Positions 39,269 to 42,961 of a stretch of 54,617 bases of DNA are shown here, one piece after another. The stretch is from Candidatus Methanoperedens sp. (GTDB lineage Archaea > Halobacteriota > Methanosarcinia > Methanosarcinales > Methanoperedenaceae), in the NCBI GenBank assembly GCA_026552955.1, contig JAPMTS010000039.1, forward strand, positions 1 to 54,617. Reading direction: 5' to 3'. The position numbers and the translations under genes are program-made. Position 1 is the first letter of the stretch, and every line of letters starts with the position of its first letter. Below the pieces are notes generated by a model, which had not been told where the DNA came from, did not search any database, and saw only the letters and a program-made list of their open reading frames with translations.

Positions 39269-40300
39269 TCACACCGTCTTTATCTCAAATCTTTCGAACA
39301 TCTTTCTCATGACAAGGTCCTGTATCGACCCAAAACCTGACGTAGCTATGGTCTTGCCATTCAGGTCATCAATAGTCTTGATATCAGAATCAGCTCTCAC
39401 GATCAGAGCACTTCCTCCTGAATTCACTCCGCTGATGATATAGATCCTGCCATTATCATTTATCCAGTACCTCAAAAGAGGGGTCATACCAAAGGTGGCA
39501 ATATCAACTTCCCTGTGAGCGAAAGCATTCGTCATTGCCTGTCCGTTCCTGAATTTCATGAACTGAAGGTTCTTGCCAGGGATGAGGCCTACTTTTTCAT
39601 AATACCCCTCTTCGTTTGCCACATAAATTGCAAGGTGATGGAGGTTGCGTTCCAGGAAGCCGAACCGGATGCTCCCGTTAACAGGTGAGGGCATCCAATC
39701 AGGATTAGTATCCAGTCTTTTCTTGATATCTTTATAATATGTATCCAGAATGATATTTGAAAAAAATCCGTCAATGTCATTCGGACGATCTTTAAAAGCT
39801 CCGGCTTTATCCATTATATCAAATGCGATCTTCATCTCCTCCTTTTCCGGGAATTCATTATAGATCATGCTATCGAGGGCTAGTGAAGCAGACTGACCGT
39901 CAACTTCTGTGAAATTAGATGCGTAATATATGGCCTTTTCCCGATTTGTCGGATCATTGATGAACATACTGCCTTTCAATTGCGCCCAAACAAGAGCTCT
40001 TATCATATCTTCATCTACAATGAATTCAGATTTTACAAGAACACAGCTTGGATGATCAGGCCAAACGTCTTTCGAATTTACAAGATACCTGCCATAACCA
40101 TCAATTACAGATTTGGCAGGATGGGGTTCCCACGAAACGAAACCTGCTATCGTTCCATTCCTGAGGGCTGAACTCATTTCATCAGTGGTCATTGAAACGA
40201 CATTGATGGTCTTCTGAGTATGGGGTTCTTCATACAGGCACCCTGCATAAATTATTGACAATAAACAAATCCCGATTATTATATAGCCATTTTTTTTCAT
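39269..40300 (-). CDS. NMT1/SsuA-like substrate-binding lipoprotein with lobes in swapped order (circular permutation)
   Basis: A 343-residue protein. A lipoprotein signal ends in the lipobox IIYAGC (Cys21). Residues about 31-190 match the second lobe of nitrate/sulfonate/taurine-type binding proteins (SSALRNGTIAGFVSWEPH, SKDVWPDHPSCVLVKSEF). Residues about 208-343 match the first lobe (IRFGFLERNLHHLAIYVANE, REVDIATFGMTPLL, GGSALIVRADS, DDLNGKTIATSGFGSIQD). In ordinary family members lobe 1 comes first, and the C-terminal end here (FERFEIKTV) would run straight into the N-terminal start (INVVSMTTDE). Its start overlaps the histidine kinase stop by 4 nt. No ABC permease or ATPase is nearby, so a sensory role is likely. 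Confidence 0.8.
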   Translation of the reverse strand: MKKNGYIIIGICLLSIIYAGCLYEEPHTQKTINVVSMTTDEMSSALRNGTIAGFVSWEPHPAKSVIDGYGRYLVNSKDVWPDHPSCVLVKSEFIVDEDMIRALVWAQLKGSMFINDPTNREKAIYYASNFTEVDGQSASLALDSMIYNEFPEKEEMKIAFDIMDKAGAFKDRPNDIDGFFSNIILDTYYKDIKKRLDTNPDWMPSPVNGSIRFGFLERNLHHLAIYVANEEGYYEKVGLIPGKNLQFMKFRNGQAMTNAFAHREVDIATFGMTPLLRYWINDNGRIYIISGVNSGGSALIVRADSDIKTIDDLNGKTIATSGFGSIQDLVMRKMFERFEIKTV

Positions 40301-42105
40301 ATTGTCTCAAACTTTTTCAACCTGAAATAGAATAAACTTCCTTTTCGTGGTTCACTCTCTACATAAATTTCACTGCCATGCGCCCTGATAATTGCACTTG
40401 AAATTGATAACCCGAGCCCGCTACCGCCAATTTTTCTTCGTGATGTGCTATCTGCCTGATAAAATTTGTCAAATATCTTTGCTACTTTATCCTTTTCAAT
40501 ACCGATTCCTGTATCTTTAATCCCGATCTCGATATAATTTTTTTCTTCTTTAGCCGATAGAACCACTTCACCACCATTATATGTGAATTTTAATGCGTTA
40601 CTGAGGAGATTATTCAATACTATAATAAGCTTATCCTTGTCCGCAAGGAGCGGGGAAAGATATTCAGGAATTTCCCTATTTATAGCAATATTATTCTTCA
40701 ATGCAAGATACCTGATATTTTCAATTGCCGCTTTTGCAATTTCCTGAACATTCACCTTTTCATAATGAAATTCCATCTTCCCGGCTTCGATCTTTGAAAG
40801 GTCAAGGATATCATTGATCAACCTGGTCAGGCGGTCAACGTTCATAATAACATTATTCAGCATTTCTTTCTCAACATCAGGATCCATGGTATCTTCGGAT
40901 TCGAGAAATTCTGCTGATGTTCTTATCGCAGAAAGAGGTGTTTTTAGCTCATGCGAGACCAGAGAGATAAAATCTGATTTCAGGTTATCCAGTTTTTTTA
41001 ACTCTTCATTCGCTCGAATAAGCTCTTTGTTTTTTTCTTCCAGATCTTTATTGGCAAGTTTGATCTTTGTCTCAAGTTTTTTCCTTATATCCAGAAGTTC
41101 TTCTGCTGTTTGATTGAATATTTCAGTCAGTTCTCCTATCTCATTTTTTGAAGATACGGATATTGGTTTGAAATGCCCATTTACAAGACCCGCAGCGCCA
41201 TTTTTAAGTGATTCAATAGGTTCAGTTATTCTTTTTGAAATTACAATAGCAACAAGGACTACACAGAAAACTGCAAAAATAGATATTACTGCAGTCTCCT
41301 TCTCCAATGTAATTATATCAGCATATGCTTCATCCCTTTTCTGTTCTACTACAAGCCCCCATCGATAAAGCGGCAGCCAGTAATATGATCCCAGCACATT
41401 CTCGCCTTTATAATTTATATAATCGCCAACTCCTCTTTTTTCGTATATCACTTCTTTTACGGCAAAATTATTATTGATTTTTTCATGAAGTATCCTGAAT
41501 CGATCCTTATGAAAAATAAGTTCACCTTTATTATTGACCAGGAATATCTCTCCGGACCTACCAATATCGATCCCTTCGATAATCATATACAGGTTCTCGA
41601 TACTTACTCTTGCTCCCATTATTCCTGTAATCGTATCATTCTTTCTCATCGGGTTTGTAATTATTATTTCAGGCAGGTTCGTGGTACTTGATAGTGATAC
41701 ATCTGAAATGAACAATCTCCCTTCAAGAGCATCCTTAAGAAAAGGTTCTTTAAGTGCATTTGAAGGATTATTAAGGGTCGAGAAAATGATATTTCCGCCA
41801 GCATCAATGATAAAGAACTCCAGATACACCCCTTCGTGTTCATTCTGAAATGAATTCAGGTATTTCTGGAGTTTTTCGTTTTCAGAATTTTCAGCGATAT
41901 AAGAAATTATACGTAGATCGTCCTTTCTTGCATCCATCCAGTTGTCAATTGCCTTGCCAGTATTTTCAGTTGCCACAAGCAGGTTAGTATTTACTGAATT
42001 GTGAATAGCCGCCTGACTGTGCTCATAGGATACATATACCACTGCAGATAGCGGTATTATAGATATGATCAGGAAAAAAATGATCTGTTCAGACCGTATT
42101 CTCAG
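40297..42105 (-). CDS. Sensor histidine kinase: TM-Cache-TM-HAMP-HisKA-HATPase
   Basis: With the start proposed here the protein has 602 residues. Helix 1 (about 8-26) is followed by a dCache-like extracytoplasmic sensor (about 30-265, including GDYINYKGENVLGSYYWLP), helix 2 (about 272-290), HAMP and a coiled coil (to about 370), phosphoacceptor SHELKTPLSAIR (His386) and ATPase boxes DTGIGIEKDKVAKIF and GGSGLGLSIS. The first ATG/GTG (GTG at 42042) would cut helix 1 off. The in-frame CTG at 42103-42105 sits 6-7 nt after GGAGG (42113-42117) and restores it; no ATG, GTG or TTG is available upstream before a stop. Confidence 0.88.
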   Translation of the reverse strand: MRIRSEQIIFFLIISIIPLSAVVYVSYEHSQAAIHNSVNTNLLVATENTGKAIDNWMDARKDDLRIISYIAENSENEKLQKYLNSFQNEHEGVYLEFFIIDAGGNIIFSTLNNPSNALKEPFLKDALEGRLFISDVSLSSTTNLPEIIITNPMRKNDTITGIMGARVSIENLYMIIEGIDIGRSGEIFLVNNKGELIFHKDRFRILHEKINNNFAVKEVIYEKRGVGDYINYKGENVLGSYYWLPLYRWGLVVEQKRDEAYADIITLEKETAVISIFAVFCVVLVAIVISKRITEPIESLKNGAAGLVNGHFKPISVSSKNEIGELTEIFNQTAEELLDIRKKLETKIKLANKDLEEKNKELIRANEELKKLDNLKSDFISLVSHELKTPLSAIRTSAEFLESEDTMDPDVEKEMLNNVIMNVDRLTRLINDILDLSKIEAGKMEFHYEKVNVQEIAKAAIENIRYLALKNNIAINREIPEYLSPLLADKDKLIIVLNNLLSNALKFTYNGGEVVLSAKEEKNYIEIGIKDTGIGIEKDKVAKIFDKFYQADSTSRRKIGGSGLGLSISSAIIRAHGSEIYVESEPRKGSLFYFRLKKFETI

Positions 42106-42129: not shown

Positions 42130-42639
42130 TTATTCTTTTGATCTTTTGAGCACATTCTTTATACGGGCTTTCAATTCATTCAGATTAAATGGTTTTGTTA
42201 CATAGTCGTCTGCACCCATCTCCAGACCTTCCACTTTATCTCTCACTTCATCTTTAGCGGTCAACATTATCACAGGGATCTTTCCTGTAATTTCATCTTT
42301 TTTCAACTGGGCGCATACTTCAAAACCATCGATTCCAGGAAGCATAAGATCAAGGACTATCAATTCTGGCAACTCTGTCTTTGCTTTTTCGATCGCCTGG
42401 TAACCGTCATAGGCTTCGATAACTATGTAACCCTGGGCTTCAAGGGATCTTTTTAATGGAAGAAGCGTAGACATCTCATCATCTACTATCATGATCTTTT
42501 CTCTTGAATCTGAAAAACCTCTGATACGCGTTTCAACTTCTTTTTCAGGGATACCGGTTATCCTGGAAATCTCTTTGTTAGAGATATTTTCATTCTTTTT
42601 GATCAACTCAACGATCTTGTCATCAATATTTTTATTCAT
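42130..42639 (-). CDS. HTH-receiver response regulator (N-terminal HTH, C-terminal REC)
   Basis: A 169-residue protein. Residues about 6-40 form an AsnC/winged-helix-like HTH (DKIVELIKKNENISNKEISR, then ITGIPEKEVETRI). A receiver domain follows (about 48-166) with IMIVDDE, phosphoacceptor LIVLDLMLPG (Asp97), MLTAKD and the lysine in YVTKPF (Lys149). The HTH before the receiver is the reverse of the usual order. It overlaps the winged-helix gene by 8 nt and lies upstream of the kinase, so it is its likely partner. Output could be through its own HTH or through the adjacent regulator. Confidence 0.88.
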   Translation of the reverse strand: MNKNIDDKIVELIKKNENISNKEISRITGIPEKEVETRIRGFSDSREKIMIVDDEMSTLLPLKRSLEAQGYIVIEAYDGYQAIEKAKTELPELIVLDLMLPGIDGFEVCAQLKKDEITGKIPVIMLTAKDEVRDKVEGLEMGADDYVTKPFNLNELKARIKNVLKRSKE

Positions 42640-42961
42640 GCTCTACCACCGGCTTTTCCAGATCAGGTGAAGGTGATTGTTCATCCAATACTAACGTTAA
42701 TTCGTCATAGAATTTTATGAGAAGCTTCGCAGCTTCATGTTCCTCATTGAGATAGAACGAACGTATCTGTTTCCCGATCTTTTTCTCAATAATTATATTA
42801 TTCTGCAAAAGAGGTTCAATTACTCGTGCCACGCTGGAATGATACAATCCCGTGGCCTGCGCTATCCCTGAAAGATAATTGATCTCTCCTTTATTATTCA
42901 TGAGATATTCCAGTACAGTTAATTGTGCTGTTTTCCCAAACAACTTTTCAAGCGGGCTCAT
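42632..42961 (-). CDS. Winged-helix DNA-binding regulator
   Basis: A 109-residue protein with a winged-helix domain (about 5-75): FGKTAQLTVLEYLMNN, then recognition-helix region SGIAQATGLYHSSVARVIEP and wing IIIEKKIGKQIRSFYLNEE. A short helical C-terminus could mediate dimerisation. It resembles archaeal ArsR/TrmB-like one-domain regulators but has no cysteine sensor. It heads the signalling operon and is divergent from the leader at 43122, whose palindrome is a candidate binding site. Confidence 0.75.
   Translation of the reverse strand: MSPLEKLFGKTAQLTVLEYLMNNKGEINYLSGIAQATGLYHSSVARVIEPLLQNNIIIEKKIGKQIRSFYLNEEHEAAKLLIKFYDELTLVLDEQSPSPDLEKPVVEHE

Follow-up and report, generated by a model that had tools for sequence, protein, structure and literature searches.

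A naturally permuted NMT1/SsuA-type substrate-binding protein encoded beside a dCache histidine kinase in Candidatus Methanoperedens

A substrate-binding protein (SBP) can serve a sensor kinase, as LuxP does for LuxQ, and we know of no permuted member among the AioX- and LuxP-type SBPs. The AioX–AioS pair is a further precedent for an SBP-dependent kinase (PMC5908839). Natural circular permutation is also established among SBPs: the glycine betaine-binding proteins OpuAC and ProX are natural circular permutants of one another within type II (PMC2395249), and TpMglB-2 (Tp0684) of Treponema is a natural permutation classed as 'Type Ic / Cluster Bc' (PMC4990184). Our literature search returned no report of permutation in the SsuA/NMT1 group, none on permuted SBPs in methanogens, and no paper on a Methanoperedens kinase with an SBP or on such extracellular sensors in that genus; the case in the SsuA/NMT1 group described here is apparently new. 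It lies in a 54,617-nucleotide stretch of DNA from Candidatus Methanoperedens sp. (contig JAPMTS010000039.1), hereafter the window.

Halves, linker and cut point

The preliminary description of the window proposed an open reading frame with the two halves of an SBP in swapped order, and Pfam and NCBIfam matches bear this out at exactly 39269–40300 on the minus strand. The gene and its parts are as follows.

39269..40300, minus strand: circularly permuted NMT1/SsuA-type SBP, subfamily A, 343 aa (Pfam, hhalign)
40238..40300, minus strand: N-terminal hydrophobic segment, residues 1–21, a probable signal anchor (AlphaFold helix 3–21)
39707..40213, minus strand: residues 30–198, the canonical C-terminal half (rest of lobe 2 and C-terminal helices; Pfam, hhalign)
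39671..39706, minus strand: linker, residues 199–210, bridging the former C- and N-termini (TNPDWMPSPVNG; homologue comparison, hhalign)
39272..39670, minus strand: residues 211–343, the canonical N-terminal half (lobe 1 and first helix of lobe 2; Pfam, hhalign)

In Pfam, residues 29–124 fall on the end of the NMT1_2 profile (positions 151–248 of 252, E 6e-23) and residues 220–340 on the start of NMT1 (positions 2–117 of 216, E 8e-14), both far above cut-off, so that the C-terminal half comes first. The NCBIfam profile SsuA_fam (TIGR01728) likewise matches in two stretches, with residues 217–333 on the profile start, and this non-colinear match stays below the curated cut-off (92.7 versus 163.5 bits). 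Every significant match at sequence level is to a type II family, and the motifs named at the outset are all present (FVSWEP, WPDHPSCVLV, GGSALIVR, DLNGKTIA and GSIQD). We aligned a profile of permuted homologues by hhalign with one built from canonical Methanomethylicales SBPs. In native order the match splits into two crossed blocks of 124 and 157 columns, in which residues 211–340 align with canonical positions 44–173 (score 190, E 9.4e-27) and residues 36–198 with canonical positions 184–342 (score 156, E 8.5e-22), values that exclude chance. A permutation-aware alignment, proposed earlier as a check, joins them: with the halves swapped back, hhalign returns a single block of 288 columns (score 337, E 4.5e-49).

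The gap between the two native-order blocks, canonical positions 173–184, places the cut inside lobe 2 and not between the lobes, and the new ends sit where the GSIQD helix (GSIQDLVMRKMF), the first of that lobe, gives way to the next strand. The original wording 'lobe 2 then lobe 1' is therefore right in that the C-terminal half precedes the N-terminal half, and only approximate in where the chain was opened. The signal segment has kept its N-terminal place despite the permutation. Judged from these alignments, the window SBP is shown to be a type II SBP of the NitT/TauT kind (SsuA/TauA/NMT1-like) that has undergone natural circular permutation: the linker connects the canonical N- and C-termini, and the new ends lie within lobe 2.

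Structure prediction agrees with this arrangement. An AlphaFold model built from 51 permuted sequences reaches a pLDDT of 92.1 and a pTM of 0.85, and this confidence suggests, as a prediction only, that the permuted chain forms a single folding unit. In a Foldseek search, which is bound to sequence order, the permuted model matched only 33 PDB chains at E <= 0.001 and had no full-length superposition, with TM by query length at most 0.36. The control model, a canonical relative from Methanosuratincola built from only 10 sequences (pLDDT 84.8), matched 1436 chains, with superpositions on 3un6, TauA and SsuA of TM 0.71–0.75 at 2.6–4.2 Å. Such a contrast between two predicted models is what permutation predicts. 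Ligands of the nearest solved canonical families are sulfonates, taurine, pyrimidines, nitrate and bicarbonate.

Homologues, origin and transporter operons

A single-sequence scan of genome contigs with the window SBP gave no matches; an alignment-based scan did find homologues. In the contig scan, which used narrow patterns and was not exhaustive, for bacteria as well, the permuted carriers were Candidatus Methanoperedens or Methanoperedenaceae, some titled 'uncultured archaeon' or 'Euryarchaeota archaeon', together with two 'Methanosarcinales archaeon' records (METP1, SMBSF02) and one ANME-2 (HR1); the Methanomethylicales and Rhodococcus matches have the canonical order. Same-genus genomes contain close, equally ordered homologues at 52–76% identity and a second permuted subfamily, B, at about 30%. 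Class- and phylum-level searches brought in a further 25 permuted proteins of full length from other families (G060; 24 of 393 genomes). Order and cut point are common to all 33 subfamily A, 12 subfamily B and 25 wider homologues. This order in 33 close and 37 more distant homologues shows that the protein is not a truncation.

Subfamilies A and B each form one clade in trees of re-ordered sequences. An earlier tree places the permuted proteins on one side of a branch (98/85), and with the wider set they group in a single clade that excludes every canonical sequence (100/100) and in which A is sister to the remaining permuted proteins on a long branch (88/89). The closest canonical sequences in one tree are Methanomethylicales SBPs and one long-branched Rhodococcus sequence; in the other, with the wider set, all canonical SBPs stand apart from the permuted ones. 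On this phylogenetic evidence the permutation is shown to have a single origin, in an ancestor that several archaeal families of the phylum share. The canonical same-genus paralogues L088 and L089, which have the same XRE gene flanking them, were considered as direct parents of B, and the trees do not support this.

Lipoproteins encoded in ordinary ABC operons make up most of the permuted relatives. A permease lies behind the SBP in all 12 B loci, together with an ATPase where the contig allows, and the window's own genome carries B with permease and ATPase (C3); among the wider permuted loci, the permease directly follows the SBP in 24 of 25. Permutation is therefore not tied to the kinase, and the earlier suggestion that the termini moved 'perhaps to suit a kinase partner' is unsupported; we reject a permutation made for the kinase, since most permuted relatives are ABC-linked. 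The permutation most likely arose in an ordinary ABC operon, where it persists, and the most economical history has a single permutation event there, after which one branch moved to a signalling operon. Because A is basal on its long branch, this transporter-first order rests on the canonical outgroups and not on a nested position of A.

A divergent XRE-type regulator stands in front of most of the wider permuted loci and is common to the phylum's canonical operons L088–L090, L216 and L217. The conserved XRE-type HTH protein of about 172 aa (L077:7849-8367, L089:5457-5975, L090:5315-5842 and many of L192–L217) flanks permuted as well as canonical operons of the SBP-permease-ATPase type throughout the phylum, and is probably their regulator.

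The subfamilies also differ in two motifs. A lipobox occurs in 12 of 12 B proteins and in none of the 33 close A homologues, as scored by a regular expression that missed one B copy (VPGC), then read by eye. The window copy alone has a weak one, IIYAGC, with AGC present and Tyr at -3; the initial label 'lipoprotein' rests on this AGC and is rejected as a trait of subfamily A. The vicinal-cysteine HPCC motif of lobe 2, at residues 83–86 of the window SBP in the alignment of all groups, is retained by all 37 of the transporter-linked permuted SBPs examined and by 2 of 34 A proteins. HACC or HQCC is common at this site in canonical relatives, and HPCC may bind a metal or a thiol-reactive ligand. 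The loss of ABC genes, lipobox and HPCC in A fits a release from the transporter with a change of ligand or partner.

Kinase operon of subfamily A and the role of the SBP

In the window, the SBP is the last gene of an operon with the order wHTH, HTH-REC response regulator, dCache histidine kinase and SBP, and the kinase stop overlaps the SBP start (ATGA).

40297..42105, minus strand: sensor histidine kinase, 602 aa, TM-dCache-TM-HAMP-HisKA-HATPase (CTG start behind GGAGG)
42130..42639, minus strand: response regulator, N-terminal HTH and receiver domain (Pfam, NCBIfam)
42632..42961, minus strand: small winged-helix DNA-binding protein, first gene of the operon (below-cut-off family matches; conserved position)

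The apparent CTG start of the window kinase lies at 42103–42105; homologues use a standard start codon, and the N-terminus of the kinase family (MRIRSEQ..., about 602 aa) agrees with a CTG start at 42105. ORF callers would begin the kinase at GTG 42042, 21 codons late, and lose the first transmembrane helix.

Subfamily A is carried by Methanoperedens and a few other ANME-2. The search for same-order homologues beside histidine kinases, also suggested beforehand, found them: a dCache kinase directly precedes the SBP in 30 of 33 A loci, with a gap of -46 to +9 nt and mostly a 4-nt overlap, and none of the 33 loci has ABC genes beside the SBP. Ahead of the kinase come genes for a response regulator carrying an N-terminal HTH and for a small wHTH protein, so that the gene order of the window's operon is conserved in the subfamily. 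The window's genome has two complete A-type systems, the second of which (C34) is paralogous and keeps the kinase–SBP pair. The A-type SBPs of L046, L049 and L054 are without a neighbouring kinase, and L046 keeps the wHTH and response regulator genes. A divergent uvrC-like neighbour, recognised by eye, lies upstream in the A loci L035, L050, L053, L057 and L066; L050 also has a uvrA-like gene (938 aa) on its downstream side, with similar lengths in L048 and L055.

We consider it likely that an ancient permuted ABC SBP has been re-used in ANME-2d as a membrane-anchored co-sensor of the histidine kinase, the sensing step being the conjectural part; in its operon the SBP is probably the signal-catching part of the sensor kinase. 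An uncleaved N-terminal helix would hold the SBP at the outer membrane face, where it would close on a small ligand and contact the dCache ectodomain of the kinase in one state. This contact would set phosphotransfer to the response regulator, in the way of AioX with AioS and of LuxP with LuxQ.

Two other readings deserve weighing, neither of them probable. In the first, the permuted A SBP would still serve uptake in trans, for example with a permease of subfamily B, and the kinase operon would provide only its regulation. B and the wider homologues do sit in intact ABC operons, one B system being in the same genome; against this, A has drifted to about 30% identity with B, carries no lipobox and rarely the HPCC, both of which transporter-linked permuted SBPs keep, has no neighbouring ABC genes in 33 loci, and is found in f2 genomes without a full-length B match, all of which makes such a role unlikely. 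Equally doubtful is that the dCache domain makes the kinase a sensor in its own right, with the SBP co-transcribed and outside signal reception. Domains of the dCache type can bind ligands directly, and three A loci have no kinase. In addition, a functional link between adjacent SBP and kinase genes is not always present (PMC11113362). The tight, often 4-nt-overlapping coupling is nevertheless held in 30 of 33 loci, across the genus and into another family, and the C34 system of the same genome keeps its pair.

That the gene is a simple truncation, either the remnant of a longer lobe 1-lobe 2-lobe 1 (tandem) protein or a decaying pseudogene, is highly improbable, for although both ends fall on one canonical point, as in a trimmed duplicate, and decayed family copies exist in this genome (C12, L037) and others (L072), about 70 homologues share its length, order and ends, many at 52–76% identity, the AlphaFold model is confident, and the ends carry no residual overlap. 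No lobe 1-lobe 2-lobe 1 homologue and no two-copy ORF occurs among 177 matches, which refutes the tandem duplicate trimmed at both ends, offered in the preliminary description as an alternative, in the sense of a one-off truncation. Residual end overlap as a duplication trace is likewise rejected: the C-terminal seven residues are no closer to the N-terminal strand than to elsewhere (median rank 0.51). Circular permutation is strongly supported by the profile test, the AlphaFold model, the same order in about 70 homologues and the single origin. The decayed subfamily-A copies, L037 (G000:C12:38748-39132) and L072 (G017:C43), contain stop codons; within the genus, subfamily-A SBP copies come and go.

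Comparison with known systems

Canonical SBPs in ABC operons, permuted SBPs in ABC operons and permuted SBPs with a kinase make up a natural series, which lets one ask how moved termini affect docking to a permease or kinase partner. For Methanoperedens, the A loci point to an extracellular sensor family in methane oxidisers. Automatic annotation obtains only half a match, so that permuted members are missed or misnamed.

With the SsuA/TauA/ThiY-type (NMT1, NMT1_2) SBPs of NitT/TauT systems, the window SBP shares homologous halves, motifs and predicted fold, and its permuted relatives share the SBP-permease-ATPase operon; it differs in the permuted order of its halves, and subfamily A in having no adjoining ABC genes. 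Like AioX–AioS and LuxP–LuxQ, it is encoded beside a sensor kinase and response regulator with no transporter, and a conserved SBP stands next to a kinase with an extracellular (dCache) domain in 30 of 33 A loci; unlike AioX and LuxP, it is probably anchored by its N-terminal helix. OpuAC and ProX offer natural circular permutation within type II SBPs in another ligand family, and the window SBP model has no in-order superposition on OpuAC (Foldseek TM 0.34–0.36), so that cut or topology differ. TpMglB-2, as presented in the accessible part of its report (PMC4990184), is similar in having new ends within one lobe, in belonging to a membrane-tethered SBP family and in its ABC linkage; it differs in its type I (MglB) fold, its bacterial host and its independent origin, and that part describes no kinase-linked branch. 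'Type Ic' membership, with its type I fold and MglB homology, does not extend to the window SBP, whose significant sequence matches are all type II. On balance we lean towards counting the family as the third natural SBP permutation and the first known in NitT/TauT, with a single origin, a spread across several archaeal families in ABC systems, a membrane-anchored dCache co-receptor branch free of a transporter in ANME-2d, and its anchor on lobe 2 instead of lobe 1.
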